The notes beneath the pieces were generated by a model. The model did not search any database. It saw only the letters and a program-made list of their open reading frames with translations, and was not told the DNA's origin. Positions 32,403 through 48,233 of a stretch of DNA of 64,000 nt are shown here, piece by piece. The stretch is from Methanolobus sp. WCC4 (GTDB taxonomy: Archaea > Halobacteriota > Methanosarcinia > Methanosarcinales > Methanosarcinaceae): the NCBI RefSeq assembly GCF_038022665.1, contig NZ_CP150629.1:1966480-2030479 (forward strand), read 5' to 3'. A program made the translations under genes and the position numbers. How positions within the stretch are numbered: the first letter of the stretch is position 1; each line of letters starts with the position of its first letter.

Positions 32403-32429
32403 TTATTTTGCCTGACATGGATATATAAT

Positions 32430-32544: not shown

Positions 32545-33378
32545 ATGGATGAAAAGTTGCTTGCAAATATCGGTTTGAACAAATATGAAAGCACCGTTTA
32601 CTGGACGCTTTTGAAAAAAGGAGAGCTGGAAGCAAGTAAATTATCACAGTTATCACGGGTTCCCATTGGAAGGATCTATGAGATCTTGCGGAATCTGAAC
32701 AAGTATGGCCTTGTGGAGATAAAACCTTCAAGGCCACGAAAATACAGAACTGTTGATCTGAAGATCGCTTTTGAACTCATGTACAAAAGAAGAGAAGAGG
32801 AAGCACTCAATGAGCTCAAACTACTCAGGGAAGCACTTGATGAGATCGAACGGCAACTTTCCAATGACGATTCACCAAAGCATGTTGAAACAATATTCTG
32901 GCCCGACAAGTTCCATGATGATGAACTAAAAGAGACAGTTACTTCATTTTTTGAGGATATTGAGCACGAAATATGTGTTGTTACTCCCCTTAAGTATAAG
33001 CCAGGAGTATCTGATCAATATGATGATTCAATGTCGATATTCAGCAGGGCGTACTTAGATCTGGCACAACGTGGAATTCATGTTAAGATACTGGATTCCC
33101 ACTCTCAACTGTTGCCGTCAATAAAAGAACTTGTTGATCCAATTGAAGATGGATCAGTAAAGGACCACTTAAAGGAGTTCCTGGAAATAAGAATTCTGGA
33201 AACTGAGCATGATTTCGTGATCTTTGATTCAAAGACCCTCTTCCTTGATATTGAAGACCAGATCGATACGGGTACCAGTCTCGGTATGACGCAAATCCAT
33301 GATGAGTCATATACAAAGCGTTTCAAGGCTAAATTCGAAGACCTCTGGACTAAGGGGAAACGATTCGATCTTGCATGA
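32545..33378 (+). CDS. TrmB-family transcriptional regulator
   Basis: 277 aa. The N-terminal winged helix (about 1-75) has L-N-K-Y-E-S-T-V-Y-W-T-L-L-K-K-G-E-L and S-K-L-S-Q-L-S-R-V-P-I-G-R-I-Y-E-I-L, typical of TrmB. A coiled-coil linker with E-E-E-A-L-N-E-L-K-L-L-R-E follows, then a PLD-like effector-binding domain. It ends in a short basic tail. TrmB regulators control sugar or central-metabolism genes in archaea, but the ligand here cannot be read. A cas1 relic starts 12 bases after the stop codon. Confidence 0.9.
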   Translation: MDEKLLANIGLNKYESTVYWTLLKKGELEASKLSQLSRVPIGRIYEILRNLNKYGLVEIKPSRPRKYRTVDLKIAFELMYKRREEEALNELKLLREALDEIERQLSNDDSPKHVETIFWPDKFHDDELKETVTSFFEDIEHEICVVTPLKYKPGVSDQYDDSMSIFSRAYLDLAQRGIHVKILDSHSQLLPSIKELVDPIEDGSVKDHLKEFLEIRILETEHDFVIFDSKTLFLDIEDQIDTGTSLGMTQIHDESYTKRFKAKFEDLWTKGKRFDLA

Positions 33379-33390
33379 ACTGGTCCAGGC

Positions 33391-33545
33391 TACAATCTGC
33401 AAGAGCCATTCAGATTCCTTTTTGATATGTCTGTAATCAGCCTTATTGAGTCCAATTGAGGATAATACGGACTTTTCAGGACTGAGAGCTGATTCACTCA
33501 GGCTCAACCTTCAGGAGCTAAGAAGGTTACTGAGGACTTTTCACG
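33391..33545 (+). pseudogene. cas1 (casposase) fragment, later part
   Basis: Frame from 33391 reads Y-N-L-Q-E-P-F-R-F-L-F-D-M-S-V-I-S-L-I-E-S-N then a stop. After it, Q-P-S-G-A-K-K-V-T-E-D-F in the same frame matches R-P-S-G-A-K-K-L-T-E-E-F of the intact casposase. Together they cover Cas1 residues about 244-295. The segment begins almost exactly where the 29965-30095 fragment stops, so both derive from one cas1 copy that was split by a 3.3-kb insertion or rearrangement. Confidence 0.85.
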
Positions 33546-33583
33546 AGAAGTACACATCCAACTCTATACTAAAGTTCTGCAAG

Positions 33584-33658
33584 CAATTAGTTGCATCAGC
33601 AACTATATATCTGATAGAGATGTATTCAAGCGAAAATGGTTGCATCTGCAACTAATTG
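33584..33658. promoter_or_regulatory. Twin palindromic operators flanking the marR-MFS promoter
   Basis: GTTGCATCAGCAAC (33590-33603) and GTTGCATCTGCAAC (33639-33652) are near-identical palindromes 49 bases apart, with CTATATATCT, a TATA box candidate, between them. CAATTAGTTGCA (33584-33595) and TGCAACTAATTG (33647-33658) also form a longer inverted repeat. A repressor bound to both sites would block the promoter. The adjacent MarR-type protein is the obvious candidate. Confidence 0.7.
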
Positions 33659-33693
33659 TCCTGAAACTAACGACAATCAACAAGGGTGTACAA

Positions 33694-34131
33694 ATGCATG
33701 ACAATAATTTCAGCGGGAAGTTCATCTCATATCTCCACCGATACGGACAGATCTATATTGATAAAAAGATCGAACCATATGGCATAGGAAGTGGACAGTT
33801 CTCTTTCCTTGTGCGATTGTACCACGAGGATGGTGTCAATCAGGAATGTCTTTCAAATTACCTGAAGATCGACAAGGCCACTACTACGAGAGCTATAAAG
33901 AAACTCGTTGATGAGGGCTATGTTCTCAGAAAGACAGATGAAAAGGACAAACGGTCTTACCTGATATTCCTTACTGATAAGGCGAAAGAGCTGGAACCTG
34001 AGATGAAAAAGATAGCTGCAGAATGGGAGAATATCCTCTTCTCGGGTTTTGATGAAAATGAAAGAGAAGATATCGTGAGATCACTCGAAATTATGTTCAG
34101 GAACGTATCCGAAATAATGCAGGATAAATAG
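33694..34131 (+). CDS. MarR-family transcriptional regulator
   Basis: 145 aa from the ATG at 33694, preceded by AAGGGTG; the frame extends to 33640 but into the operator. The winged helix has Q-E-C-L-S-N-Y-L-K-I-D-K-A-T-T-T-R-A-I-K-K-L and the wing V-L-R-K-T-D-E-K-D-K-R-S-Y-L-I-F-L-T, with the MarR D-x-R motif. It is followed eight bases later by an MFS transporter gene, a layout typical of drug-responsive regulator-pump pairs. The twin palindromes upstream are its probable autoregulatory sites. Confidence 0.92.
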   Translation: MHDNNFSGKFISYLHRYGQIYIDKKIEPYGIGSGQFSFLVRLYHEDGVNQECLSNYLKIDKATTTRAIKKLVDEGYVLRKTDEKDKRSYLIFLTDKAKELEPEMKKIAAEWENILFSGFDENEREDIVRSLEIMFRNVSEIMQDK

Positions 34132-34139
34132 GTCTTACA

Positions 34140-35372
34140 ATGGAATTTAAACGAACGCACCTTCTAATGCTTTGTGTCACTGCCTTTTTTGCAATGGCAG
34201 GGAGTGCTATTTTAGCACCGGTGTTGCCAGAGATGGTGGCACCTCTGAATACAACATCCCATGAGATCGGACTGATGATATCGGTCTACACGATATCGAC
34301 AGCTATTTTCACTCTGGTGATCGGCCATTTCATTGACCGGGTGAACCGCAAGCGTATACTTGTTCCATGCCTTGTATTATATGGCCTGATGGGACTTATC
34401 AGTTATTTTGTCTCTGATCTGCAATCACTTCTTATCATGAGGTTCATACAGGGTATTGGTGTAGCAGGAATGATGTCTTTGTCCATGCTGATCATAGGGG
34501 ATGTGTACAAAGGTCATGATAGTTTACATGCAATGAGCAGGGTTAGTATGGCTATTGCCATTGGAACGGTATCTGCCCCTCTTATAGGCGGAGGGCTGGC
34601 AATTCTGGGATGGAACTATCCATTTCTTTTCTATGCACTTTCACTGCCATTCGCTGTTCTTGTAATATTTTTCCTTCCTGAAACAAGTGTAAAGAAAGAA
34701 AATGATAGCCATAAAGGTATAATTAATGTACTTCCGGCACTCAGGGATCTGCGAATACTATATACAGTCTTCCTGAGCTTTGCTATCTTCTTCCTGTTAT
34801 TTTCAGTGGTTATCTACATGCCTTTTATGCTTAAGGCTACATTTGCTTATACAGCAAAGCAAGCAGGATATGTATTGGCTTTCCAGGGAATGGCTGTTAT
34901 TATAATGGCATCCCGTGTAAAGGTCCTGGTCGCAAAGTATTCGATGATACAGGTTATTACCGCCGGTTTTGCACTTGTCGGACTGGCAATACTCTCTATT
35001 CCATTTGCAAATTCAATTGTAACAGTTCTTCTTCTAATGTTGATATTCGGGGCAGGCTATGGGCTTGCTCAAACCACAAATGATGCACAGATAATTCGTA
35101 TCTCTCCTCCTGAATCAAGAGGAGGCGTATTATCTATGCACAATACTATGAAGTACACCGGTCAGAGTCTTTCACCCATAGTGCTAGGTGTAGTCCTGCT
35201 ACATTCTAACCTTGACACGGTCTTTATGATATCAGGAATCCTGGGTTTGCTTATTGCTCTGACAACATATCTGATGAAGGGGCAATTTGAAAGAACAGAT
35301 GATGTACATGTCAAAAATACGAAAATATCATTGCCGTATTCAGCCTGTCCTGAACCGCTGGATGATAGGTAG
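34140..35372 (+). CDS. MFS multidrug-type efflux transporter
   Basis: 410 aa with 12 transmembrane segments. G-H-F-I-D-R-V-N-R-K-R between TM2 and TM3 is the MFS motif A; G-I-G-V-A-G-M-M near 105-112 and the TM5 stretch M-A-I-A-I-G-T-V-S-A-P-L-I-G-G-G-L resemble motif C of drug/H+ antiporters. Substrates would be exported in exchange for protons. It lies eight bases after the MarR-type gene and shares its promoter. The C-terminus has a polar extension (about 375-410). Confidence 0.9.
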   Translation: MEFKRTHLLMLCVTAFFAMAGSAILAPVLPEMVAPLNTTSHEIGLMISVYTISTAIFTLVIGHFIDRVNRKRILVPCLVLYGLMGLISYFVSDLQSLLIMRFIQGIGVAGMMSLSMLIIGDVYKGHDSLHAMSRVSMAIAIGTVSAPLIGGGLAILGWNYPFLFYALSLPFAVLVIFFLPETSVKKENDSHKGIINVLPALRDLRILYTVFLSFAIFFLLFSVVIYMPFMLKATFAYTAKQAGYVLAFQGMAVIIMASRVKVLVAKYSMIQVITAGFALVGLAILSIPFANSIVTVLLLMLIFGAGYGLAQTTNDAQIIRISPPESRGGVLSMHNTMKYTGQSLSPIVLGVVLLHSNLDTVFMISGILGLLIALTTYLMKGQFERTDDVHVKNTKISLPYSACPEPLDDR

Positions 35373-35448
35373 TTTGATTAAGAGATTTGAGTGAAATACA
35401 GGACAATTGTTTCTGACAGAATAGTTGATCAATGGTTGGGTAATTTAC

Positions 35449-35670
35449 CTACTCAGCCATATGAACTTTTTTAGAAATAATGAATCTTTCATCTGCTGTA
35501 ACGTAATCCCATAACCCTAAAAGTAAGGTTAGAGTAGAGTACATACTAAATAAATAAAGGACAGTAACCTTAACAGGTTGCTTCCTTATCCTACATTCAC
35601 ACCTTCCTCCATAGTGAGCACTCATTATTTTTCCACGAATTAAAGGCGATAGAATAAGATCCAACGACAT
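35449..35670 (-). pseudogene. Casposon PolB fragment (palm region)
   Basis: The 73-aa minus-strand frame contains H-Y-G-G-R-C-E-C-R-I-R-K-Q-P-V-K-V-T and then L-F-S-M-Y-S-T-L-T-L-L-L-G-L-W. These match Y-Y-G-G-R-C-E-C-R-N-R-K...D-F-T-S-M-Y-P-T-V of the intact casposon polymerase (residues about 290-340). The catalytic aspartate of motif A is replaced (L-Y-L-F-S instead of L-D-F-T-S) and the proline of S-M-Y-P is lost. It is a dead remnant inside the 390-base gap 35373-35762; nothing else is seen in that gap. Confidence 0.85.
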
Positions 35671-35762
35671 AGGAACTTTGACTTTGTACCCGGAATATGA
35701 TCTGTCATAGCAAGGCGCATCGTAGAAATAAGATAGTAACTTATATTTTATGTGGGGTTAAA

Positions 35763-36566
35763 ATGAGGAAATTAATACTTTGTCTGTTAATGATATTATT
35801 TGTTAGTTCATCCGGTTGTATCAATGATACAAATGAAGTTGCCAATGAAATGACAGATAATACTGAAGAGCTAACAGGGTCAGGAGATTTTCAGGTAGAA
35901 GGTACGGAAGTAATGATCATTAGCGCTAACCTGAGTTATCCTACGTACGTTGCAGCACCTATAACTGAAGACAGAAAACCGGCAATAATCCTGATACACT
36001 CATTCAGAGGAATGGAACCAGGATATATCGAACTTATCGACAGGTTTGCTTCTGATGGATATGTGGTAGTGGCTCCTGAGTGGCAGAGCTTTGAGACATC
36101 CCCATCTGATGAAGTTGTAGAACAATTGATAAGGGATTCTGTTGACTATGCAAGAACAAGGTCTGATGTAAATACCGACCTTCTTGGACTGACAGGCTTC
36201 TGTGCAGGTGGAAGATATACTATGCTATTACTTCCTGAGATCAAGGATTTCAATTCCGGGGTCGCATGGTATGGTTTCCCATATTCAGGAGGAGATGAGA
36301 ACCGACCATTTGCACCTGCTGATGTGATAGAGGGACTTGATGCTCCCATGTTGATCATCCACGGGACTCATGACCAGCCCAGCAATATATCGGATATCTA
36401 CAGATATTGCACTGAACTGGATAACGCCGGCAAATACTTTGAATTGAAGGTATATCAGGGTCAACCACATGGTTTCATGCTTGAGGATGGCCAGCTTTCA
36501 CAGAGTTTTGAAGCCGAGGATGCTTACTGGCAGATGGTTACATTCTTTGACAGGACATTGGGCTAA
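35763..36566 (+). CDS. Dienelactone-hydrolase-family lipoprotein
   Basis: 267 aa from the ATG at 35763, with GTGGGG upstream. The signal sequence ends in the lipobox S-S-G-C near residue 20, so it is probably a lipid-anchored protein outside the membrane. The alpha/beta hydrolase part has H-S-F-R-G-M-E-P-G-Y and the nucleophile elbow G-F-C-A-G-G-R (cysteine nucleophile, as in dienelactone hydrolases), with D and H supplied by H-G-T-H-D-Q and P-H-G-F. An extracellular carbohydrate- or ester-cleaving role is possible, but the substrate is unknown. No partner genes. Confidence 0.88.
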   Translation: MRKLILCLLMILFVSSSGCINDTNEVANEMTDNTEELTGSGDFQVEGTEVMIISANLSYPTYVAAPITEDRKPAIILIHSFRGMEPGYIELIDRFASDGYVVVAPEWQSFETSPSDEVVEQLIRDSVDYARTRSDVNTDLLGLTGFCAGGRYTMLLLPEIKDFNSGVAWYGFPYSGGDENRPFAPADVIEGLDAPMLIIHGTHDQPSNISDIYRYCTELDNAGKYFELKVYQGQPHGFMLEDGQLSQSFEAEDAYWQMVTFFDRTLG

Positions 36567-36797
36567 GTGATCGATCTTTATCACATTGAACTTTTGACCT
36601 GCTTTAAATTCTTCAAGTTGTACAAATACGAAGGAGATGAGGAAGGTATTGGGTCATTTAGGTTGAACAATTGTGTCATAGGAATATTATATGTTTAATT
36701 TTTAAAAAAAGATATTAATAAATATGAATGAGATATATTATTAATTAATTTAAGGTGATGTATGCAATATTAGTGGCCTGGATAGGATGTGAAGTGA

Positions 36798-37583
36798 ATG
36801 AAGAAACCATTGCTGGATGTTGTATTTAGTTCTAGAAAAAGAAGAGATACACTTATACTGTTGCAAGAAGCCCCTCAGGAAATGGATTATCTTCTTAAGT
36901 CACTGGATACAAACAGACAGGCTTTACTACCCCAAGTTAAGATTTTGGAAAAACATTATCTTGTTACTAAATCTGATGATGTTTATGAGTTAACTAAAAT
37001 TGGTAAACTAATTGTTGATGAAGTGAAGCCTTTGTTGGACACAGTAAGTGTCTTTGATTCTGACATTGAATACTGGGGAACCCATGACTTGAATTTTATT
37101 CCCCCATACCTTTTAAAGAGGCTTCATGAGCTTTCTCCATGTAAGGTGATCTCTAAAATCTCTCCTGCCCAGCTATATGAACCAAGTGAGAATGTTATCG
37201 AAAAAGCAAAGCATTCTAAAGTTCAGACATCTGTAACCACATTTCTTTTTCCCAACTTTGCATCGATACTTAAGGACTTCACTAAAAACGGAGTTAAGAT
37301 GCGTTTGATAGTTACCCAAAAACTCCTTTCCAAAATAAGAGATGAGATGGAGGAGATAAGATTCCTATTAAATAATGGTAATCATGAAGTATTCCTGTAC
37401 TCCAAAGAAATGAATTTTGCATCTTTTGGTACTAACGATTTTTGCTTTATGGCGAGGGCATTAACTAAAAAAGGAGAGTACGATATGAAATACATAATGT
37501 CTTGCGAACCTTCTGCAATTCAGTGGGGAAATGAACTATTCGAATATTACCTGAAAGATTCCATTCCGATATCTGATGTATGA
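36798..37583 (+). CDS. Winged-helix regulator with FilR1 (DUF1724) domain
   Basis: 261 aa. N-terminal winged helix (about 1-80): R-R-D-T-L-I-L-L-Q-E-A-P-Q-E-M, L-D-T-N-R-Q-A-L-L-P-Q-V-K, Y-E-L-T-K-I-G-K-L-I. The C-terminal ~170 residues (F-D-S-D-I-E-Y-W-G-T-H-D-L-N-F-I-P-P-Y-L and later E-V-F-L-Y-S) are the FilR1/DUF1724 effector domain common in methanogens. It regulates an unknown target; the family includes the filament/methanogenesis regulator FilR1. The ATG at 36798 has GATGTGAAGTGA before it. Casposon relics lie just downstream. Confidence 0.87.
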   Translation: MKKPLLDVVFSSRKRRDTLILLQEAPQEMDYLLKSLDTNRQALLPQVKILEKHYLVTKSDDVYELTKIGKLIVDEVKPLLDTVSVFDSDIEYWGTHDLNFIPPYLLKRLHELSPCKVISKISPAQLYEPSENVIEKAKHSKVQTSVTTFLFPNFASILKDFTKNGVKMRLIVTQKLLSKIRDEMEEIRFLLNNGNHEVFLYSKEMNFASFGTNDFCFMARALTKKGEYDMKYIMSCEPSAIQWGNELFEYYLKDSIPISDV

Positions 37584-37634
37584 TGTTTTTCGAAGTATCA
37601 TACATTGTATATTTTTCACATGTGATTGGATTGT

Positions 37635-38279
37635 AAACCTAATACTTATTTTATCTATCTACTTGGACATTACAATGACCATGCAGTTATCTCTAACCTT
37701 ACAGTATCAACTGGAAATATTCTGATACGCTTCAAGAAAATGAACGAAGGTAATGAATTTTCTGAACAAATCAAGCCTTTTAATTTCATGTTTGTTGGTA
37801 GTGGTGCAACAATCAATGAGGATGGGGAAAAGGTCAAGCCTGTTGCTCCTTACAATAATAATCCACAGGTTGCTATTGAGCAAGAGTTCATAGACTACAA
37901 TACAGGAAATGAGCTACAAGGAAGGGAATACTGGAAGCCATTAAGTGATGTGTTTCTTGATTACATAGACCATCCTGAAGCCAAATTTGAAGGAGACATA
38001 GGAGTACTGCAAAGGAGACATCTTACTCCTACTGGATGCGTGTATATTGGTAAGGAAGCCAACAAGGTTGAAATGCAGGAACTTGAGAGCAATACTATTG
38101 AGACGTATCATGATATTGAAAAGATAAGAGAGTATGTACTCAATCTTACTCCTGCTGAAGCTAGGAAAATAGGAATAAAATATAGGAGTACTCTTAATAA
38201 ATTGAAGGAAAGGGTAAGAGAAGGGTATTTTAATATGAATACGAAGGAGATGAGGAAAGTATTATCCACAAAAATCTAA
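37635..38279 (+). pseudogene. Chimeric casposon relic: HTH-protein piece fused to PolB C-terminus
   Basis: Y-F-I-Y-L-L-G-H-Y-N-D-H-A-V-I at the start matches H-F-I-Y-L-L-G-H-Y-N-D-Y-A-V-I of the wHTH protein at 45025-45900. From L-T-V-S-T-G-N onward it matches the PolB C-terminus (about residue 708 to the end), including K-P-F-N-F, K-F-E-G-D-I-G, L-Q-R-R-H, Y-I-G-K-E-A-N and T-K-E-M-R-K. In the intact element these genes are on opposite strands, so a rearrangement joined them in one frame, within A-V-I. It is not expected to be active. Confidence 0.85.
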
Positions 38280-38301
38280 AAAATGAAAAAAATAGTATCG
38301 T

Positions 38302-38700
38302 TTATGCCACGACACTAAAAGTACCATCACGACTGTATGAGTAACTGGTACCAATATATGTTACCACATGCCAGCGATAATCATAACCCGGTGGGAATAA
38401 TGCTTTATCATATTCGTAATTTGATACCGTTACATATTCAGTATGTTGTATGGGCACCCAATTTTCTTGACCCGATTCTGAATACCATATACCAATTGTG
38501 TAAGAATCTGCATTTTTAACATCAGTCCAATCAAAGGTCAAAGTATCTCCGAATGAGCTATATGATATTGTTTTTGTAGGAAACAGTAACCTTGCTTTTG
38601 GAACCTTCTTTTCACCAGGTACAGCTTCTGCTACAGATACGAGCACTAACGAAAGTGCCAGAAGTACACCTATTAATAAGTAAATCTTTTGTTTGTTCAT
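38302..38700 (-). CDS. Secreted fibronectin-III-like protein
   Basis: 132 aa. A signal peptide (about 1-27, ending in A-E-A) precedes a single beta-sandwich with S-Y-S-S-F-G-D-T-L-T-F-D-W-T-D-V-K-N, A-D-S-Y-T-I-G-I-W-Y-S and Y-D-Y-R-W-H-V-V-T-Y, typical of fibronectin type III-like domains. There is no C-terminal sorting signal, so it may be released or bound to the cell surface. It lies between the chimeric casposon relic and the decayed terminal repeat, the same relative place that the PEF-CTERM cargo holds in the intact casposon. Confidence 0.72.
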   Translation of the reverse strand: MNKQKIYLLIGVLLALSLVLVSVAEAVPGEKKVPKARLLFPTKTISYSSFGDTLTFDWTDVKNADSYTIGIWYSESGQENWVPIQHTEYVTVSNYEYDKALFPPGYDYRWHVVTYIGTSYSYSRDGTFSVVA

Positions 38701-39121
38701 TTACCATTCCTCCAAATTATACAGAGAATCATCTACATCTATAGAGACTACTATTAAGAAGGCAGGACATGCCAAGAATCAGCACATTCAAAAAAAGAGG
38801 CAGTGACGCCTTACCAATCCCCACAGATCAATATGAACTCCCATGTGTAATTCGTATTTCTTTGTATATATACATTTGCAAATAATTTCATATGATTTAT
38901 AAAGATATATATTTTTAGTATAATATTAATTACGCTGTGAACAGTAAAAATAATAATGCAAATGAATCAATACAAGATTAATAATATGTGTTAGTTAATA
39001 TAATATTGCCCTGATGACAACATGAAATGATAAAACTAAACTATTATAATATCCAAGCTTTATTATTATACAATCATTTGAAATTTTATAGCGTACACTT
39101 TTTTCGCCTTGTATATATCCC
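38701..39121. other. A/T-rich stretch left of the casposon
   Basis: No gene is seen in these 421 bases, which are strongly A/T-rich. The last 30 (39092-39121) look like a decayed casposon terminal repeat. Confidence 0.5.
39092..39121. repeat. Candidate decayed terminal repeat of an older casposon
   Basis: Aligned without gaps to the right repeat of the intact casposon (48110-48139), 17 of 30 bases agree. The matches include CGT at the outer end, the T6 block in the same register, and CCC directly touching the target sequence GAAGCGCAGGTGCG. This is the position expected if an older element had inserted at the same site and lay to the left. Confidence 0.45.
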
Positions 39122-39135
39122 GAAGCGCAGGTGCG
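39122..39135. repeat. Target-site duplication, left copy
   Basis: GAAGCGCAGGTGCG, identical to 48140-48153. The 14-bp length is that of known casposon target duplications. Confidence 0.95.
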
Positions 39136-39165
39136 GGGTAATAGTAATAGCCAAAAAACGCAACG
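39136..39165. repeat. Casposon left terminal inverted repeat
   Basis: Begins GGGTAATAGTAATAGCC and ends CGCAACG. It pairs with 48110-48139 inverted, with a single G/A mismatch at position 15. Confidence 0.97.
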
Positions 39166-39311
39166 ATTTTAATTTTGAAGAACAATCATAAATAAATAAT
39201 TAATACTATTAACAAAGATATATTACCATAGACACTATCAAATTTTATGACAATAATATAGATTATATTCTGTTAGTTCAACTTTTTAAGGTTGATTAGT
39301 ACCAGTTATCT

Positions 39312-40997
39312 TTATTCTACATCATCGTTTTCAGGCGGAGTTCTTTCTGGAAAAAAGAAATTACGCAAACGGGGTGGCAAATCTAGTGTTTGAGCGTTTT
39401 CAACTTCTTTATATATTTTTATGAGTATTTGTATTGCTATCAATAAACCTACGACGTCGTTACCAACGATTCCAAAAAAAGAAGAAATTAAAGCAAGAAG
39501 GCCTAAAATGATTCCTCCCCAAACCGTGACTGTTGGAATATACCTTGCCATTACTTTTTCTATCGAACCAATATTTCGTCTGAATCCAGGAATTTGATAG
39601 CCAGAATTAAATATTTTACGAGCAGTTGGTCTTGCTCCAATACCTCTTGTTTCAACCCAAAAAAGAGAGAACAATACACACCCTCCAACAAGGAATACAG
39701 CATTAATAAATATTTTAATAATTAACCCACTTATATCTCCTTCATTAAACATAAGCATTGGAATCCATTCTGAGGCACCACTTAATGGTTGTAAATATTT
39801 AAAAAATACAGGTAAAGACTCCACCCCTATGTTACCCCTTAAAGGATGCCAATTTGGTACTACATGTATACTAATTTCACGATTATAAAGAAAAGAAAAA
39901 AATGAAAATAAGAATATTCGCAGACTTTCCACTAGTGCAAGAGGAATTGAACTAGCATAGATTAATCTAACTGGGAACCTACCACGTGCCCCTCTAACTG
40001 CTGAGTGTGCTAAGGGTATTTCAATTTTAATAGAAAATATGTAAATATATATAAAGAACATTATAATGGTTCCAACCAATGGGATAATTTTACTAGTTGC
40101 CACAAAATACTTCAATTCATTTTGCTTCATAAGCAGGCCGTTTTCCAAAACTAAAGAATATATTCTTGGAAATGTTCCTAAGGGCAAGCCATCTATTATT
40201 TTAGGATTGAATAAATCAAAAAAGATTGAAATCGAAACACCCGCAATGATAAACCAACCAACACCATTACCAATACCCCATTCATTAATGATATCAATAA
40301 AAAATTCAACAAGAATAGCACCAACAACTAATTGAGCAACTAAAAGCACAAGCATAGAAAAGTCACTAATTCCTAATGAGGCAGCCAAGTCTAAATTTGG
40401 TTTTATTTGAGTAAAGGTGACAAAAAAAATTGCTTGAACCACTGTAAAGATTAAGAAGCTTGATTTCGATAATTCTTTAAAATAATATTCATCTGCTGGG
40501 TTAGACATATCTAATTTAATGTAATTATTAGCAACTAAAGCTTCAAGAATAAATATTTCACCAATTAATGGGAAAATTCCTAATGTCAATAAAGATCCAA
40601 ATGAACCCCCTATCAAATTACGAAAAGGTTCTAAATAATCAGTCGATTCACTGGACAAACCAAAAAGAGGAACTTCTGATAATAATAAATAAATAATAAG
40701 AACACTGATTGTCCACATAGCTTTTTTATTAAGTCTCACGTGACCTTCTGGGGACGAAATTCGTGGATAGTATCGTGAAATGTATGGTGAAATAAATTCT
40801 AAAAACATTCCTAAATATTTAAGTAACAAATCTAAAGGATACGATAAAACCTTACTAATTTTGATAATACATTTTATTATTAGCGATAATGTAAGCCTTA
40901 GTATATCAAAAAAATAAACATAAATATACACTAAAATAACATATAGAGTAATGATTACAGTTAATGTGAGTATACTGAAGAATAGAAAATAAAACAT
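39312..40997 (-). CDS. SecY-like protein translocase subunit (casposon cargo)
   Basis: About 561 aa from the ATG at 40997. A TTG at 41021 adds eight residues, but an AAATATAAAAG TATA box at about 41035-41045 places transcription near the ATG. Roughly the first 60-90 residues are an added hydrophobic region with two or three segments. Then the SecY core follows: G-G-S-F-G-S-L-L-T-L-G-I-F-P, I-N-E-W-G-I-G-N-G-V-G-W-F-I, I-P-L-A-H-S...R-G-R-F-P-V-R-L-I-Y-A-S-S-I-P, and V-E-T-R-G-I-G-A-R-P-T-A. Q-I-P-G-F-R-R and R-Y-I-P-T-V-T-V close the C5/TM10 region. It is clearly archaeal-SecY-like but divergent. No SecE or Sec61beta gene accompanies it. A dedicated translocon inside a casposon is, to my knowledge, not described. 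Confidence 0.9.
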   Translation of the reverse strand: MFYFLFFSILTLTVIITLYVILVYIYVYFFDILRLTLSLIIKCIIKISKVLSYPLDLLLKYLGMFLEFISPYISRYYPRISSPEGHVRLNKKAMWTISVLIIYLLLSEVPLFGLSSESTDYLEPFRNLIGGSFGSLLTLGIFPLIGEIFILEALVANNYIKLDMSNPADEYYFKELSKSSFLIFTVVQAIFFVTFTQIKPNLDLAASLGISDFSMLVLLVAQLVVGAILVEFFIDIINEWGIGNGVGWFIIAGVSISIFFDLFNPKIIDGLPLGTFPRIYSLVLENGLLMKQNELKYFVATSKIIPLVGTIIMFFIYIYIFSIKIEIPLAHSAVRGARGRFPVRLIYASSIPLALVESLRIFLFSFFSFLYNREISIHVVPNWHPLRGNIGVESLPVFFKYLQPLSGASEWIPMLMFNEGDISGLIIKIFINAVFLVGGCVLFSLFWVETRGIGARPTARKIFNSGYQIPGFRRNIGSIEKVMARYIPTVTVWGGIILGLLALISSFFGIVGNDVVGLLIAIQILIKIYKEVENAQTLDLPPRLRNFFFPERTPPENDDVE

Positions 40998-41140
40998 ATA
41001 ATCATGTAAAAAAAGATGCAATCATTAATAAACTTTTATATTTGTTCAAACGTATATAGGAGACTGCGTAGAATGCATCCTTTGATTCAAAGTAGTCACC
41101 GTAATCATTTTCAGGCGGTTTACGATAAAAATAGTAAGCA

Positions 41141-43798
41141 TCAAAATACACTTACTAATTTCCTCACCTCCTTTGTCCAGAAATTGAACTTCCCACCACT
41201 CAAAATCCTGTCCTTCATCCTCTTGAGAGTGCTCCTCTCCATAACTCCATATCCCCTTGCTTCCTCTGGAGTCATAGCCAGTATCATTTGCTTGATACCT
41301 TCCTCATCAATGAAGGTCTGTGCTCTCTGAAGCTCTAATTCCTCTTCATCAATGTTGTTGGCTTCCTTTCCAATGTAAAGGATACCATCCGCATGAATGT
41401 GTCTCCTTTCCAGAAGTCCAATATCACCCTCAAACTTATGTTCTGGGTGCTCTGCATACTGCAATATGGTTTTACTCAATGACTTGAAATAGTGTGACCC
41501 TTGCATGATTTCACCAGTTTCATAGTCTATGAATGGTTCATGAACTATCTTTTGTGGATTGTCACAAAAAGGAGCAAGTGGTTTTATCGCTCTACCATTC
41601 TCCTCAACAGCCTGAAATCCCACCAGACAGAAGTTGAAAGGTTTGATCATCTCCTTCCATGATTTGCCTTTATTGAGCTTCTTGAACCTGTTCCATACAT
41701 TAGGAGTGCTAACAGCAAGCTTTGAGATAGCATACATATTGCTGTATTTTTCCACAATATCTCTGGAACTGATCATATCATATTCTAATTGCAAAAGGTC
41801 TTCCCATATTTCCTCATGCCAATCCCCTTTTCCATCCTTTGAGAATGGATTTGTCAGGTGCCCTAATCCATGCAATTTGAAATCCTTGAATATGATTTTA
41901 TCTTTCCTGAATTTATACAATGGATAGCGTTTAGATGAGATTCCATAAAACCAGTAATCCACCTTTTCAGGCTTTAGCAGTGGAATATCTAGGTTATAGG
42001 GATTTAGAGGTTGGAAATACTCTGTAATTTCCTCTGCATATTCAGGAGGAACAAAGATAGAGTCAGTATCCATATAGGAGTGTCTAGCCCCTAATTCCTC
42101 TACTTTTGCCTCTGCCATTGCCAAAAATAGCTTTGAACCAGAGGTAATCATAACAGCCAGTAGAGGATGATAGAAGTTACCTGGCTTTTCATACCTATTC
42201 TGTGAGGTACTGAAAGAATCGAGCCCATAAACCTCTATGTCACTTTTCCTGTCCTCTGGATTAAGCTCAATGAATATCCCGTAGCTCATAGCATTAACAA
42301 GAATCTTGATTGCCTGTGCTCTGCTCTTTAGCTGTTGATACTCTGGACTTTCGGAATCAATATTCTTCATTTCAATCTTGATCTTCTGTCTTTCCTCGAC
42401 AAGAACCTGAACAAGATTATCCTTTTCAGGATCAATATCAATTCCAAGTATCTGTGACTTTCTTAATCCTTCCTGAATGCCTACTGGAACAAATCTGACA
42501 GCTTCAACAATCTCCGGAACTTTGCCAGTGAGAATTACAGAAGCTATGACATCAGGTAATGCATACCATAGTTCATGCGCTGAGGACAGATAATTGACAC
42601 CAACATTAAATGAACCATTATCTTCCTTGTAATCCATTCTCACAGGTAGTATATCACCATCGGGACGAAGCTTAACCATTACAACAAAGTCTTTCCAATT
42701 ATCCGCATTTTGCAGATACCCAAGATTAATTATTTCCAGTAGCTCTCTGATTTCCCCTGTTACATTCTGTGTTTCAATGTAGTCTGCAATCATAAGATTC
42801 CACAGACCCATTACCATTGTAACCGTTGGATACATGCTTGTAAAATCAAGAGTTGTAACCTTTGTTGGAACTTTCCGATTTCTGCATTCACACCTACCAC
42901 CATAATATGAGGTCATTATCTGACCCTTCATATTATCAGGGAAATCAAAATTCTGCTCACTCAACGGTTTAATTCCCAACTGTTTCAAAGCGTATTTTCC
43001 AATTGATGCATTGCTGTATATCTTGGTTGGAGGAACATCAATATTGTAGAGATCAAGCTCCTTGATCAATCCCTCATATACATCAAAAGTGCTCTCTACA
43101 TCCTTTATCAGATAATCAAGATATCTCTTGGTGATAGTACCGTGTTTAATATCCTTCATCTTCTTGTGTCTTGTATCAAGTAATTCACAGGCTTTTGCGA
43201 GCGATATATGATTTTGTTGAAGCAAGACAGTTCCAAGGGTTTGAGCATCTAGGAAATGACCTGAAAAATAATCAGCTCCTTGATTGTACATTGTAGTGAA
43301 TTTGAAGCTGTTAGCGGCTCCAAGTTTCCTGATCACAACAGGAGGATTATGCTTTTTCTTGGAAAGTGTGAATGTGAATCCTCCTCTGTTCTTCCCTTTT
43401 GATGGATTACCAAACATTGCCAGTCTGCTTATATCAAAAGCAAGATTGAAGCCTACACAAAGTGATTTTAATCCAAAGACCTCTGGATAAAATACACCAT
43501 CTACAAACTCTTCATGGCGATATAACTCAATACAATGCTTTTCGGAATAATCTTTGAGAATCTTTACTTCTCGATCATTAAGCATTGATGGGTCATAGAA
43601 GAGTCCTTCATACTGAAGGTAACCTTCATGATATTTCTGGAAGAAACCAACCTTCATATTCTGATACTGATCTATTGTGGTTTCAGTATCGAAAACAAAT
43701 ACATCCTCATGCTTTAACTGGAGGTTACTGTTGTAAAACTGATTGGATTGGGAATCTTTAGCTTTAACAGTATATCCTCTTACAGCAATCTTGCTCAT
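41141..43798 (-). CDS. polB: Casposon family B DNA polymerase
   Basis: 885 aa. Exonuclease motifs: F-V-F-D-T-E-T (D37, E39), F-N-L-A-F-D (N118, D122) and Y-L-I-K-D (Y229, D233). Polymerase motifs: A, D-F-T-S-M-Y-P (D318); B, K-I-L-V-N-A-M-S-Y-G; C, Y-M-D-T-D-S near residue 557. All catalytic residues are present, so it should have synthesis and proofreading activity. It replicates the casposon in the self-synthesising transposon model. ATG at 43798 with GGAGGT nine bases upstream; the start overlaps the HNH stop by four bases (ATGA), so the genes are coupled. Two fragments of related polymerases lie at 35449 and 37635. Confidence 0.96.
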   Translation of the reverse strand: MSKIAVRGYTVKAKDSQSNQFYNSNLQLKHEDVFVFDTETTIDQYQNMKVGFFQKYHEGYLQYEGLFYDPSMLNDREVKILKDYSEKHCIELYRHEEFVDGVFYPEVFGLKSLCVGFNLAFDISRLAMFGNPSKGKNRGGFTFTLSKKKHNPPVVIRKLGAANSFKFTTMYNQGADYFSGHFLDAQTLGTVLLQQNHISLAKACELLDTRHKKMKDIKHGTITKRYLDYLIKDVESTFDVYEGLIKELDLYNIDVPPTKIYSNASIGKYALKQLGIKPLSEQNFDFPDNMKGQIMTSYYGGRCECRNRKVPTKVTTLDFTSMYPTVTMVMGLWNLMIADYIETQNVTGEIRELLEIINLGYLQNADNWKDFVVMVKLRPDGDILPVRMDYKEDNGSFNVGVNYLSSAHELWYALPDVIASVILTGKVPEIVEAVRFVPVGIQEGLRKSQILGIDIDPEKDNLVQVLVEERQKIKIEMKNIDSESPEYQQLKSRAQAIKILVNAMSYGIFIELNPEDRKSDIEVYGLDSFSTSQNRYEKPGNFYHPLLAVMITSGSKLFLAMAEAKVEELGARHSYMDTDSIFVPPEYAEEITEYFQPLNPYNLDIPLLKPEKVDYWFYGISSKRYPLYKFRKDKIIFKDFKLHGLGHLTNPFSKDGKGDWHEEIWEDLLQLEYDMISSRDIVEKYSNMYAISKLAVSTPNVWNRFKKLNKGKSWKEMIKPFNFCLVGFQAVEENGRAIKPLAPFCDNPQKIVHEPFIDYETGEIMQGSHYFKSLSKTILQYAEHPEHKFEGDIGLLERRHIHADGILYIGKEANNIDEEELELQRAQTFIDEEGIKQMILAMTPEEARGYGVMERSTLKRMKDRILSGGKFNFWTKEVRKLVSVF

Positions 43799-44124
43799 AT
43801 TAGATCAACCTCCAGACCTATCATACGAAGCTGCTTACCCATTCCTTCCAGTAACGCACCCATAGAAACAAGAATAAACCTTATGTTATCCTCACGTGAT
43901 GCAGTGCTTGCTCTTACCTTGCGGGGTAGTTTGTTTTGCTGTTTTGTTATTTTGAAATGACAGTTCTTGCATAGTGGAACGGTCTCTTCAGAATTGTTCC
44001 TTCCGTACACGTGGTGTAATTCTATCACATTAGGGTCATCTTCTGCACACTCGATACATCTAAGTGCTGTTTTTCCTTCTAATTTCTGTCTCTTAATACT
44101 TCTTTTTGATATTGATTTATCCAT
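43795..44124 (-). CDS. HNH endonuclease (casposon)
   Basis: 109 aa from the ATG at 44124, which has GAGGAGTGG upstream; a GTG nine bases earlier overlaps that site. The HNH core reads C-I-E-C, then E-L-H-H-V-Y-G-R-N, then L-C-K-N-C-H, a beta-beta-alpha metal finger with a C-x2-C pair on both sides. Basic flanks (K-R-S-I-K-R-Q-K at the N-terminus) would contact DNA. HNH nucleases recur in casposons with an unsettled role in DNA processing. It is translationally coupled to polB. Confidence 0.93.
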   Translation of the reverse strand: MDKSISKRSIKRQKLEGKTALRCIECAEDDPNVIELHHVYGRNNSEETVPLCKNCHFKITKQQNKLPRKVRASTASREDNIRFILVSMGALLEGMGKQLRMIGLEVDLI

Positions 44125-44139
44125 AGTTACCACTCCTCA

Positions 44140-44778
44140 TCATACATAGCGTTCTTGAAAATCATGCTCTACCTGTGCTTCATCAAGCTCGTAAAGTCGT
44201 TCTAATCGTGTTTCAAATGAATGTTCATTACCTTCAGCATCAACAAGTTTGATATTATCGAACTTTTTCAACCGAGATGTATCACCATCTTTTAGGGTTT
44301 TCTCGACTGCATCAAAGTATTCGTTAATCAGGTAACGGTCTTTGGAGCTTGTTGTTACTATCGTTGTATTGCCAGCGTTTCGGTCATAGAACCTCATTTC
44401 AGCCTGAATACTATCTATTTTTGTAACTTTCCATCTTCCATTCTCTTTGTACAGATAACGTCCTAGATTCTTGATCGCATCTTTGTTGCTCATTCCAAGC
44501 TTTTTTGTCATCTGCTCAAGACTTGCTCCTTTTCTCATAGCTCTCAAAATCTGGAAAGAACTACGTCTATCCGTCTTCTGAAGAGATGTCAGTGTTTCCC
44601 ATTTTGCTTTAGAAAGGTCATAATCACTTATTTTGAGGTCTCTGAGTTGCTTCAGGCTCTTGTCTGGAAACATCTTGTGTTTCCTGATGATCTCCTTTGC
44701 ATACCTGGTATCTCTGGGCATAGCTTTGAGCCATTGACCATAGGTTCTGAAATCCTTGGAGAATTCAGGTCTGGTCAC
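44140..44778 (-). CDS. Casposon helix-turn-helix protein
   Basis: 212 aa from a GTG at 44778 that overlaps the stop of the upstream 47-aa gene in the sequence GTGA. The N-terminal 75 residues are basic and helical (Y-G-Q-W-L-K-A-M-P-R-D-T-R-Y-A-K). A helix-turn-helix follows at about 85-115: G-A-S-L-E-Q-M-T-K-K-L-G-M-S-N-K-D-A-I-K-N-L-G-R-Y. An alpha/beta C-terminal part ends in an acidic helix. HTH proteins are a regular component of casposons; DNA binding is likely, the exact role is unknown. Next downstream is the HNH gene, six bases after the stop. Confidence 0.85.
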   Translation of the reverse strand: MTRPEFSKDFRTYGQWLKAMPRDTRYAKEIIRKHKMFPDKSLKQLRDLKISDYDLSKAKWETLTSLQKTDRRSSFQILRAMRKGASLEQMTKKLGMSNKDAIKNLGRYLYKENGRWKVTKIDSIQAEMRFYDRNAGNTTIVTTSSKDRYLINEYFDAVEKTLKDGDTSRLKKFDNIKLVDAEGNEHSFETRLERLYELDEAQVEHDFQERYV

Positions 44779-44918
44779 TTCTCAGCCTCCCAGAGTTTCA
44801 TTAGTGCTATCCTGACAACTTCAGCCTGAGAGCATCCAAAGTAATCTGACATCAATACGAGTTTCTCCTTTAGGTACGGAGATAGTGTGGTTAATATTCT
44901 TTCGCTTTTGGTGGTCAT
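44775..44918 (-). CDS. Ribbon-helix-helix (CopG/Arc-like) protein, 47 aa
   Basis: A 47-aa frame from the ATG at 44918: M-T-T-K-S-E-R-I-L-T-T-L-S-P-Y-L-K-E-K-L-V-L, then F-G-C-S-Q-A-E-V-V-R-I-A-L-M-K-L. The strand R-I-L-T-T-L and the two helices with S-Q-A-E-V-V-R-x-A form a classic RHH DNA-binding fold. It is first in the leftward operon, and its stop overlaps the next start by four bases. It probably represses the casposon's divergent promoter region. Short genes of this size are easily missed. Confidence 0.8.
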   Translation of the reverse strand: MTTKSERILTTLSPYLKEKLVLMSDYFGCSQAEVVRIALMKLWEAEK

Positions 44919-44991
44919 AATACGTCACCAATAACCACTATGCAACTCATAATATCTGTACAGAATATGAGTATAAGATTAGGTATAAATA

Positions 44992-45010
44992 TGATATAGT
45001 TCTTATATCA
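44992..45010. promoter_or_regulatory. Operator-like palindrome in the casposon divergent promoter
   Basis: TGATATA-GTTCT-TATATCA has 7-bp arms. It sits just downstream of the TATA box TATAAATA (44984-44991) and 14 bases before the ATG at 45025, so a bound repressor would block the rightward (wHTH-cas1) promoter. The RHH protein or the wHTH protein is the likely binder. Confidence 0.55.
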
Positions 45011-45024
45011 GCTAGGGTATAATT

Positions 45025-45900
45025 ATGTATAAAAAAGGGTTAGATTTTGACCAAGAAGTCAGACGTATATTATCCAATCAAGGCTATGTTAGAAGGTCGC
45101 AACTCATACAAAAACTCAAAAATAAGCATCGAGGGGATAGTGGGTATAGTGAAAAGAGTATCAATCGAAAGCTTGACAGTATGGTGAATAGAGGGATAGT
45201 ATCTAAGCTAAAAGGAGATGCTCTTAAAGAAGCAGGCATAACCGATGATGATGGGCGTTCTAGCTATTTTACCCTTAAGAAATCAGATGACATAAGGAGA
45301 CATATAGATTCAGTTATAGCTAATATCTCTTCAGATAATCCTATAAAACAAAAAATGGCGCTTAAAGAACTTGAAAGATATGAGAAACACTGTCTACTCA
45401 ATCCTGTCCAACTAGACATACTTATAGCCCAATTAGACACAGAAGACATAGACCTTATCGACAATATCCTGAGAATAGTCTATACATACATAGAAAAAAA
45501 GGAAATAGAACCCTATAACAGACAAGAAGTCATTAAGATGCTTAGAAGCCTATTGAACAAGTATCCTAAGCCATTACCACATGGATACAAGAACCTTAGA
45601 ACTCATTTTATCTATTTACTTGGTCACTACAATGATTATGCTGTTATTGAAAGGCTCAAAAAGGATGCTGAAGAGTTAGACAACCTTCATGAAATCCTCC
45701 ATGACTATGAGTCAAACTACACAGCCTTTGTAATCGAGGAACATAGGGAAGAACTCTATGAGTTTGAGGAAAAGCTAAGACTTGAAGGTATGGAAGAACC
45801 TGCTCAGTTCATTGCTCAGACAAGAGTTACAGCTATGATCCATCTTGAAATGTATGACGATCCTTTTAAGAAGAATAATGCTGCTGTGAGGGATTTCTAA
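45025..45900 (+). CDS. Casposon winged-helix protein upstream of cas1
   Basis: 291 aa. Residues 1-90 are a winged helix: Q-G-Y-V-R-R-S-Q-L-I-Q-K-L, S-E-K-S-I-N-R-K-L-D-S-M-V-N-R-G-I-V-S-K-L and the wing D-D-G-R-S-S-Y-F-T-L. The rest is all-helical with repeated leucine-rich helices and no recognised family; HEAT-like packing is possible. A fragment of a relative is fused into the relic at 37635. The stop and the cas1 start overlap by one base (TAATG), so the protein is coupled to the casposase and may assist or regulate integration. Confidence 0.8.
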   Translation: MYKKGLDFDQEVRRILSNQGYVRRSQLIQKLKNKHRGDSGYSEKSINRKLDSMVNRGIVSKLKGDALKEAGITDDDGRSSYFTLKKSDDIRRHIDSVIANISSDNPIKQKMALKELERYEKHCLLNPVQLDILIAQLDTEDIDLIDNILRIVYTYIEKKEIEPYNRQEVIKMLRSLLNKYPKPLPHGYKNLRTHFIYLLGHYNDYAVIERLKKDAEELDNLHEILHDYESNYTAFVIEEHREELYEFEEKLRLEGMEEPAQFIAQTRVTAMIHLEMYDDPFKKNNAAVRDF

Positions 45901-47105
45901 TGAAAATGATTCTCCTTAATGGTCATGGAATAGACACACGTGTAAATGGGTCTAAATTGCATATCAGGGATGGTAGACATACCACAGACATAGAACCAGA
46001 GAAGTATGTCTTTTCTCCCCAGAAAATAGACATAGACAATATAGTGATCTATGGTAAAAATGGAAATATGACCATTGATTCTATCAGATGGCTGATAAAA
46101 CATAATGTGCAGGTCACTATTCTTGATTGGGATGGTAAGCTTCTAACAACCATGCTTCCTCCTGAAAGTACTAATGTCAAAACCAAGTTCGCACAGTATC
46201 ACGCTTATGAGGATCAGGAAACAAGGTTAAAGCTTGCCAAGAAGTTCATTGAAGCCAAGTTTGATAAGACTCAGGTAGTTCTGGATTACCTGAAACAACG
46301 TTATCCTGATATTTACAACGAGTTTTCAAAGGACTCTTCAAAACTTGATGATGCAAATAACATCAAGGAAGTCATGGGTGTTGAGGGGGCTGTTGCTGTC
46401 TATTATTGGGGGCAGTTTGAAAAGTTCATTCCTGAGAAATATGAATTTGATGACCGTACAGGCAGGTACAAAACACGTCCTAGTGGTGCAGGTGATATGG
46501 TCAATTGTATGCTTAATTATGGCTATTCACTCCTTGAAGCAGAGTGTATGAGAACTATCAATGCTGTTGGTCTGGACGTTCATGTAGGCTTCCTGCATGA
46601 GATGGCATCAGGTAAGAACAGTTTAGCCTATGACCTGCAAGAGCCTTTCAGATTCCTTGTTGATCTAGCTGTAATTAACCTCATTGAGACTGACAGGATG
46701 GAAAAGAAGGACTTTATCAGGACTGATAATTACGCTCTCAGACTTAGACCAAGTGGAGCTAAGAAGCTTACAGAGGAGTTCCAGACTTGGATGAATAAGA
46801 AGGTAACTTATCAGGACAAATCAATGATGTGGAGCTATGTCCTTTTACTCAAAACAAGGGAATTGGCTCAATTCCTGAACGGTAAAAAGAGGAAAATTGA
46901 TTTTGTTACTCCCTCTTACGTGATTGAAAGACAGGATACTGATGAGATCAGGAAGAAGATATTGAGTATTTCTTATTCTGAATGGAAGGAGATGGGATTT
47001 TCTAAGGGTACTCTGCATTACATGAAGAAAAATGCAAAGGGAGATAAACCGTTTACTCTTAATTCTCATGTAAGGGAACGGTTGGAAATGTGGGAAAATT
47101 GTTGA
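45900..47105 (+). CDS. cas1: Casposase (Cas1 family integrase)
   Basis: 401 aa. A beta-rich N-terminal domain (1-90) is followed by the helical catalytic domain. Key residues: E162 in M-G-V-E-G-A-V-A, H233 in G-F-L-H-E-M and the acidic D245/E248 in Y-D-L-Q-E-P-F-R. The C-terminal ~60 residues hold a helix-turn-helix (E-W-K-E-M-G-F-S-K-G-T-L-H-Y-M), the extension that separates casposases from CRISPR Cas1. It joins casposon ends to the target and makes the 14-bp duplication. It overlaps the upstream wHTH gene by one base. No cas2 or repeats are nearby, so a CRISPR role is excluded. Confidence 0.97.
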   Translation: MKMILLNGHGIDTRVNGSKLHIRDGRHTTDIEPEKYVFSPQKIDIDNIVIYGKNGNMTIDSIRWLIKHNVQVTILDWDGKLLTTMLPPESTNVKTKFAQYHAYEDQETRLKLAKKFIEAKFDKTQVVLDYLKQRYPDIYNEFSKDSSKLDDANNIKEVMGVEGAVAVYYWGQFEKFIPEKYEFDDRTGRYKTRPSGAGDMVNCMLNYGYSLLEAECMRTINAVGLDVHVGFLHEMASGKNSLAYDLQEPFRFLVDLAVINLIETDRMEKKDFIRTDNYALRLRPSGAKKLTEEFQTWMNKKVTYQDKSMMWSYVLLLKTRELAQFLNGKKRKIDFVTPSYVIERQDTDEIRKKILSISYSEWKEMGFSKGTLHYMKKNAKGDKPFTLNSHVRERLEMWENC

Positions 47106-47150
47106 TGCTATAACTATACGAAATGTAGCAGAAAATTAAAAAGAAAAGTT

Positions 47151-47170
47151 AAGGAGTAAAATTACTCCTT
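47151..47170. terminator. Palindrome between convergent cas1 and PEF-CTERM genes
   Basis: AAGGAGTAAAATTACTCCTT is a perfect 20-bp palindrome; its right half covers the stop region of the PEF-CTERM gene. It may end transcription in both directions or be a repressor site. Confidence 0.5.
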
Positions 47171-47881
47171 TCTACGCTGGAATATGAATGCCAATCCGAT
47201 AATTGCAGCTATTGGGAGAGCAATTGTTGGGAATTCTGGGATGTCATTTTGTTCTTCCCATATTTTTTTGACTACATTAGATTCAACATCCCCGTCATCT
47301 AGGATTGCTGTGGCTTTGATATAATCAGTACCCGGTAAATTTCCTGTGTCTGTATATATGAACGTTGCTGTTCCATCTGTATTTGTATAATCCTCGCCAT
47401 GCTTTCCGACGTTTGGACCAGCAATGACCTCAAATTGAACGGTAATTCCCTCTATAGGTATGCTAATAGTTTCACCAGGGACAGCAGGCTCTCCAGGCTC
47501 ACCGGGTTCACCGGGTTCACCAGGGTCTTCACTAGGCTCTCCAGGCTCTCCAGGCTCACCGGGTTCACCGGGTTCACCAGGGTCTTCACTAGGCTCTCCA
47601 GGCTCTCCAGGCTCACCGGGTTCACCAGGCTCACCGGGTTCACCAGGGTCTTCACTAGGATCACCAGGTTCTTCACTAGGATCACCGCCAGTTTGATGCA
47701 TCATTACTGTTGCTGTAACTTCATGCTCGGTGCCTACTGTATTAGTAGCAATTATCGGAACAAGATCAACAGTGTAGTCTATCTCTACTGATACATCATT
47801 AGATGCTGCATTCCCCACAAACATTATTAGAAATATCAAGAATAATCCAATGCAAAGAACTATATCCCTTTTATATCTCAT
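47162..47881 (-). CDS. PEF-CTERM surface protein with collagen-like PGEP repeats (casposon cargo)
   Basis: 239 aa from the ATG at 47881, with GTGGGGAATTGAA before it, the same leader as chromosomal PEF-CTERM genes in this window. A signal peptide (1-28) is followed by an Ig-like domain that starts N-T-V-G-T-E-H-E-V-T-A-T-V and is interrupted by roughly 70 residues of D-P-G-E-P-G-E-P repeats. It resumes with G-I-T-V-Q-F-E-V-I-A-G-P-N and Y-T-N-T-D-G-T-A-T-F-I-Y-T. It ends I-P-E-F-P-T-I-A-L-P-I-A-A and Q-R-R-K-E, a PEF-CTERM signal. The host's archaeosortase could process it. It is a paralogue of 23048-23512, probably captured from the host. Confidence 0.9.
   Translation of the reverse strand: MRYKRDIVLCIGLFLIFLIMFVGNAASNDVSVEIDYTVDLVPIIATNTVGTEHEVTATVMMHQTGGDPSEEPGDPSEDPGEPGEPGEPGEPGEPGEPSEDPGEPGEPGEPGEPGEPSEDPGEPGEPGEPGEPAVPGETISIPIEGITVQFEVIAGPNVGKHGEDYTNTDGTATFIYTDTGNLPGTDYIKATAILDDGDVESNVVKKIWEEQNDIPEFPTIALPIAAIIGLAFIFQRRKE
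47483..47695 (-). repeat. Tandem PGEP/PSEDPGEP coding repeat
   Basis: Nine-base units (TCACCGGGT and CCAGGCTCT forms on the + strand) alternate with TCTTCACTAGG, encoding G-E-P and S-E-D-P-G-E-P blocks. The unit order is repeated three to four times with few changes, suggesting recent slippage expansion. Confidence 0.85.
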
Positions 47882-48109
47882 TTCAATTCCCCACAAATTC
47901 ACAGTGTAAACATGAATTTTTCTATTTACTGTATAGTTGCTTTACATTAACTATATTATTTGTGAAACTTAAATTCGAATCATTATTCAGAAAAAAGTTA
48001 ACAGTGTTATCATCGGTGACGTAAACTCAAGGAGCAAAACACAGATTCTTTTAAGCGACATTAGTAACTATTTTTGCAAAGTAACCTTCATTGTTGGTTT
48101 AAGGTAATG

Positions 48110-48139
48110 CGTTGCGTTTTTTGGTTATTACTATTACCC
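48110..48139. repeat. Casposon right terminal inverted repeat
   Basis: Starts CGTTGCGTTTTTTGG and ends ATTACCC, the inverted partner of 39136-39165 with one mismatch. Confidence 0.97.
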
Positions 48140-48153
48140 GAAGCGCAGGTGCG
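48140..48153. repeat. Target-site duplication, right copy
   Basis: GAAGCGCAGGTGCG, identical to 39122-39135. Its last four bases on the + strand (TGCG) are the 3' terminal CGC and discriminator A of the minus-strand tRNA-Leu gene, so the insertion rebuilds the tRNA end. Confidence 0.95.
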
Positions 48154-48233
48154 AGGGGAGGGATTTGAACCCTCGAAATCCTTCGATACTGGATCTTAAG
48201 TCCAGCGCCTTTGACCAGCTGGGCAACCCTCGC
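48150..48233 (-). tRNA. tRNA-Leu (anticodon UAA)
   Basis: The minus strand folds as a class II tRNA. The acceptor is GCGAGGG/CCCTCGC with discriminator A; the anticodon arm GGACT-TAA-GATCC has loop CTTAAGA; the variable arm is long (about TATCGAAGGATTTCGA); and the T arm is GAGGG-TTCAAAT-CCCTC. Anticodon TAA and a long variable arm give leucine. The 84 bases include the discriminator; CCA is not encoded. The casposon lies immediately downstream of the tRNA 3' end and leaves the tRNA intact. Confidence 0.96.

Follow-up and report, generated by a model that had tools for sequence, protein, structure and literature searches.

A casposon integrated at a tRNA-Leu gene

The 64,000-nucleotide stretch of Methanolobus sp. 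WCC4 DNA analyzed here (the window) contains a structurally complete casposon of the family 2 type at coordinates 39136-48139, a total of 9,004 bp. Reading from the left, its genes are secY, polB, an HNH-type gene, two more core genes, cas1, and a gene coding for a PEF-CTERM surface protein, and these lie between terminal inverted repeats (TIRs) and target-site duplications (TSDs) as follows.

39122..39135, no strand: left target-site duplication, GAAGCGCAGGTGCG, identical to 48140-48153
39136..39165, no strand: left terminal inverted repeat, 29/30 (97%) complementary to 48110-48139, of the TIR family seen in genomes G133 and G138
39312..40997, minus strand: cargo gene for a divergent SecY paralogue of 561 aa (Pfam PF00344 and PF10559; NCBIfam SecY equivalogs below cut-off; AlphaFold model)
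40809..40997, minus strand: N-terminal extension of 63 residues ahead of the SecY core, probably translated (no in-frame stop; codon usage best in frame)
41141..43798, minus strand: casposon family B DNA polymerase (Pfam PF00136; 88-90% identical in the sister casposons of G133 and G138)
43795..44133, minus strand: casposon HNH-type nuclease, 112 aa, with position and sequence conserved in casposons of the order
44140..44778, minus strand: casposon core protein, 212 aa, at the position of an HTH protein, conserved in the order's casposons, with no Pfam match over cut-off
45025..45900, plus strand: casposon core protein, 291 aa, at the second HTH-protein position, conserved in the order's casposons with mosaic identity of 31-87%
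45900..47105, plus strand: casposase Cas1 with a C-terminal extension (Pfam PF01867, E 2.1e-69; 90-96% identical in G132, G133 and G138)
47162..47902, minus strand: cargo gene for a secreted collagen-like-repeat protein with a PEF-CTERM sorting signal (TIGR03024 above cut-off; Pfam collagen repeat)
48110..48139, no strand: right terminal inverted repeat, complementary to the left TIR
48140..48153, no strand: right target-site duplication, an exact 14-bp copy, overlapping the 3' end of tRNA-Leu
48148..48233, minus strand: tRNA-Leu(TAA), the integration site (ARAGORN)

Cas1, PolB, an HNH protein and two HTH proteins form the universal set of family 2 casposons (PMC9939771), and the element meets the criteria for this family in having both Cas1 and a family B polymerase, a 30-nt TIR, and a 14-nt TSD. 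The HNH motif of the 43795..44133 product was read from the sequence, with no Pfam HNH match over cut-off; Cas1 continues for about 100 residues past the Cas1 domain, and HTH folds at the end of Cas1 and in the two core proteins are not recognized by Pfam. The element shares with the MetMaz-C1 type casposons of the Methanosarcinales the C-terminally extended Cas1, PolB, the HNH-type and two core proteins, a TIR of about 30 nt, a 14-nt TSD, and a tRNA-Leu target, but differs in its SecY cargo, which is present in 0/40 compared casposon regions. M. mazei MetMaz-C1 itself has a 31-nt TIR and a 14-nt TSD (PMC10359463). The casposase is about 65% identical to that of L100, an element whose TIR exactly matches the published MetMaz-C1 sequence, and the elements in G133 and G138, of the same genus, are bounded by a TIR that is different by one base. 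The PEF-CTERM cargo protein has collagen-like GEPGEP repeats, and a relative lies near a casposase in L092 (6659-7093).

A casposon-type end is present at the same tRNA-Leu in 10/10 other informative members of the genus, and the site is therefore a casposon hotspot in this genus. The region to the left of the element (27600-39121) contains older casposon fragments, with cas1 pieces near 27602, 30013, and 33387 and polB pieces at 35449-35670 and 37635-38263, and a casposon-type end on the minus strand (GGGATATATACAAGGCGAAAAAAGTG, 39096-39121) abuts the left TSD. These remnants and the abutting end reflect successive insertions at a single tRNA-Leu.

A divergent SecY paralogue as casposon cargo

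The original prediction, made from the sequence alone, was that the minus strand open reading frame at 39312-40997 encodes a SecY paralogue carried within a casposon, and that it is not a fragment. It would have failed if the ends of the element excluded the gene, but both the TIRs and the TSD enclose it, and its status as cargo is secure. The match to Pfam SecY (PF00344) spans 306/306 positions (E 2.6e-43), the Sec61 plug domain (PF10559) is also matched (E 7e-8), and the frame is intact across all 561 codons. The protein modelled by AlphaFold2, using an input alignment of 45 SecYs, i.e. SecY relatives, has the SecY fold (pLDDT 81.5, pTM 0.80), and the best 50 Foldseek matches to this model are all SecY/Sec61/Ssh1 chains; the solved archaeal relatives closest by sequence (chains 3mp7_A and 1rh5_A/1rhz_A) are likewise all SecY. 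The predicted RGRFPVR motif is present, although its position is in the C4 loop, which joins TM6 to TM7, rather than in TM7-8 where it had been placed. Scores to the NCBIfam SecY equivalogs are 246 bits (cut-off 300) and 195.8 bits (cut-off 253.6), below both thresholds, whereas the SecY of the host exceeds both. Judged by these profiles, the casposon protein is a member of the SecY superfamily that falls outside the housekeeping SecY equivalog.

An added hydrophobic N-terminus had also been proposed. The reading frame begins at an ATG at 40997, and an alternative TTG at 41021 would yield a product of 569 aa; Met64 (codon 40808-40806) is a residue-exact match to the usual archaeal SecY start, and the core from this point is canonical-like, with the same core length as the host archaeal SecY. 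The chance of encountering no stop in the 63 residues ahead of Met64 is about 0.006, and the codon score is highest in this frame. The ATG at 40997 is preceded, at a distance of about 40 bases, by a TATA-like sequence (AAATATAAAAG), and there is no convincing Shine-Dalgarno sequence ahead of either start (40997 or Met64). AlphaFold2 models the extension as a single long helix, with lower confidence. Its coding properties thus make the in-frame extension probable as part of the translated protein, though short of proven.

Of the two SecY genes in the host genome (2.85 Mb, one contig), one is the casposon copy and the other, at 1157044, is the normal gene. The element has no gene for SecE or Sec61-beta, as the original prediction stated, and each is encoded by a single gene outside the window, at 798589 and 143542 respectively.

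Distribution and origin of the casposon SecY

Searched with the casposon SecY, 186 genomes of the order yielded ordinary SecYs alone, none above 45% identity, and 393 genomes drawn from the phylum provided no better match. No close relative was found in phage records, IMG/VR, or genome_contigs, where the contig scans depend on exact matches to short peptides and may overlook divergent homologues. In several genomes of the class and order, G228, G420, and G009 among them, the ordinary SecY matches as two pieces of one open frame, a possible sign of a lineage-specific insertion in the loop preceding TM8. Plasmid matches were rejected as kin; these are haloarchaeal SecYs with 30-35% identity, three of which keep 151-153/157 conserved positions (defined below), and one match sits in a ribosomal protein operon. 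In Haloferax and Haloarcula plasmids (L063 8989-10455 and L065 8959-10428) the secY gene is near genes for a DUF106 protein and RdfA/SMC-like genes, and the SecYs retain nearly all conserved positions.

No SecY was found in 40 regions, about 10-20 kb long, that surround full-length casposases of the same order, where the cargo includes restriction-modification, CBASS-like, reverse transcriptase, and ATPase genes. The closest sister elements (Cas1 90-96%, PolB about 84-90% identical) lack SecY, and other genes occupy the SecY slot in the G133 and G138 elements. Genes of defence type occupy cargo slots in Methanosarcinales casposons (L102 3281-4731, L093 6907-10086, L098 8878-10386, and L094 8213-9553): a cyclase of CBASS type accompanied by a 2TM effector, a type IIG restriction-modification gene, a reverse transcriptase of the defence type, and an ATPase resembling AriA/OLD. 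In the literature that we found, the one paper that contains both casposons and SecY treats them separately, and core translocon subunits are absent from the casposon cargo described. The original prediction would also have failed if all homologues were ordinary chromosomal SecY genes without a link to casposons; this does not apply either, as the gene is not an ordinary chromosomal SecY. It is a singleton among the casposons examined, however, and does not demonstrate that SecY and casposons are linked in general. Because the core of the element is close to its sisters and its SecY is far from all known SecYs, we infer from these identities that SecY probably diverged elsewhere prior to its capture by the element.

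A 37-row SecY tree, an analysis that the original prediction called for, places the casposon protein with the SecYs of the host's family (support 97/96). Its branch is saturated, with about 10 changes per site, and its composition is atypical; in AU tests, positions beyond the host's family (p 0.56) and beyond the order (p 0.44) both remain acceptable, and its source lineage is therefore undetermined. The C5 loop is closest to that of the host genus (85%).

Conserved and altered regions of the protein

We aligned the protein with 73 ordinary SecYs from the phylum and took as conserved positions the 157 columns with at least 95% conservation. The casposon SecY retains 92/157 of these and is altered at 65/157, with the changes clustering in TM2b and TM10, which together with the missed equivalog cut-offs upholds the predicted divergence. 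The most divergent ordinary rows that were checked, haloarchaeal plasmid copies included, retain 142-153/157, and the SecY of M. jannaschii, from outside the phylum set, retains 112/157.

Overall identity to the host SecY is 45%, but this is distributed unevenly. Using M. jannaschii numbering, with approximate region borders, the C4 loop is 86% identical, the C5 loop 83%, and TM5 68%; intermediate values are seen in the plug (48%), TM1 (47%), TM9 (45%), and TM8 (41%), and the lowest in TM7 (38%), TM2b and TM6 (both 32%), TM4 (26%), TM10 (24%), and TM3 (16%). C4 and C5 exceed the corresponding values in all six ordinary SecY pairs with overall identities of 40-52%, whereas TM2b, TM3, TM4, TM6, TM7, and TM10 fall under all of them, although with only six reference pairs this comparison is coarse. 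The lateral gate of SecY/Sec61 is formed by TM2b and TM7, and TM2b, where changed conserved positions cluster, has GIGPIVTASIVLQLLVG in the host versus GIFPLIGEIFILEALVA in the casposon SecY; within this gate helix the casposon protein has GIFPLIGEIFILEALVANN where the host has GIGPIVTASIVLQLLVGAD. In the pore ring, Ile260 is replaced by Ala, Val79 by Ile, and Leu406 by Ile.

Recent gene conversion with the host secY was considered as a cause of the conserved loops and is ruled out by codon comparison. Nucleotide identity to the host gene in the C5 loop is only 69%, the same codon is used for 12/34 unchanged residues, and fourfold sites agree at 3/13 positions. Because the codons of the conserved loops are scrambled relative to the host gene, their conservation reflects selection. 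The sequence comparison thus indicates that the C4 and C5 loops are under purifying selection and that the gate helices, TM3, TM4, TM10, and one residue of the pore ring are strongly changed. A second casposon SecY was not found, and ordinary SecYs are the only basis of comparison from which selection on this lineage is inferred.

Divergent SecY paralogues are also present in the same phylum as chromosomal tandem copies beside a normal secY (family f10; L174-L178 in G418, G346, G362, and G310), and are about 28-30% identical to the casposon protein. Among those compared (G418, G346, and G310), the near-complete copies have lost conserved positions to a similar extent, keeping 91-98/157, but with the opposite pattern, in which the C5 loop is lost (22-32%) and the gate is partly kept. 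The pattern in the casposon protein is therefore not simply that of any SecY duplicate.

Possible roles of the casposon SecY

In SecY/Sec61, C4 and C5 are the loops to which the ribosome and targeting factors bind, and SecY requires SecE. The casposon SecY is accessory cargo in the left cargo slot, and would be a second, neofunctionalised, horizontally carried SecY that docks on host ribosomes through its retained C4 and C5 loops. The conservation of these loops suggests such docking and is its sole support. Because the element supplies neither partner, we infer that it pairs with SecE and Sec61-beta of the host. The resulting hybrid would serve as a second route for co-translational translocation, with an altered gate and pore that could favor clients other than those of the host channel. 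We give this reading about an even chance; there are no expression, binding, or transport data for any part of it. With 65 conserved positions lost, many of them in the gate, the protein could also be non-conducting.

That last possibility underlies the main rival explanation, in which the protein is a decoy or interference channel that docks ribosomes, and perhaps SecE, without normal conduction. Such a decoy would modulate or block membrane insertion, for example of viral proteins or those of competing elements, or would give protection from an agent exploiting the host SecY. We regard this as rather unlikely; it accommodates the retained docking loops and the changed gate and pore ring, and related casposons often have defence genes in the same cargo slots, but the casposon SecY has no PADLOC match, we know of no defence system that uses a SecY, and a decoy has no need of a complete ten-helix fold with plug and TM5. 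That it is a transient passenger, a captured SecY drifting under relaxed selection with no present function, is improbable. Although its very long branch, the many conserved residues lost, and its unique occurrence are all expected of such a gene, 561 codons have remained intact at about 29-32% GC, the charge counts of most membrane segments are in or near the normal range, and C4 and C5 are 83-86% identical despite scrambled synonymous sites.

The suggestion in the original prediction that the protein might export the co-carried surface protein lacks support. Its attraction is the parallel with the SecY2 accessory Sec systems of Gram-positive bacteria, which export a repeat-rich adhesin whose gene is adjacent. 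SecY2 is likewise a divergent SecY that serves a dedicated role, and its gene lies close to that of a repeat-rich surface protein (PMC5076819); secY and the PEF-CTERM gene share an element, and the product of the latter begins like a signal peptide and contains low-complexity repeats. However, the two genes are 6 kb apart in opposite cargo slots, and other casposons, related ones among them, carry secreted-type proteins without a SecY. The resemblance to SecY2 is confined to divergence and proximity to a repeat protein; SecY2 works with SecA2 and Asp proteins, and no such partner is found among the ORFs of the element; to our knowledge archaea have no SecA. We therefore consider a dedicated exporter of this protein hard to credit.

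Returning to the neofunctionalised channel, the casposon SecY shares with host archaeal SecY of the Sec61 alpha family its fold, plug, C4 and C5 ribosome-docking loops, and core length, and differs in its changed gate and pore helices, its 45% identity, and its missed equivalog cut-offs. By analogy it would work most like yeast Ssh1, a second Sec61 alpha, with ribosome binding and client range both inferred. The common logic is that of a second, ribosome-docking channel beside the main one, although Ssh1 is chromosomal and eukaryotic and is not transposon-borne. The ranges of substrates handled by Ssh1 and by Sec61 are distinct (PMC10233368).

SecY is an essential core gene and is single in most of the genomes searched. 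A natural SecY in which the docking face is kept while the gate and pore are exchanged offers a test of which parts decide docking, gating, and client choice. It also bears on whether mobile elements manipulate host protein export, and we raise as a tentative possibility, short of an even chance, that a transposon-borne, ribosome-docking SecY variant may take over or block part of host co-translational export, acting either as another channel or as a decoy, and would represent an undescribed tool or weapon of mobile elements.
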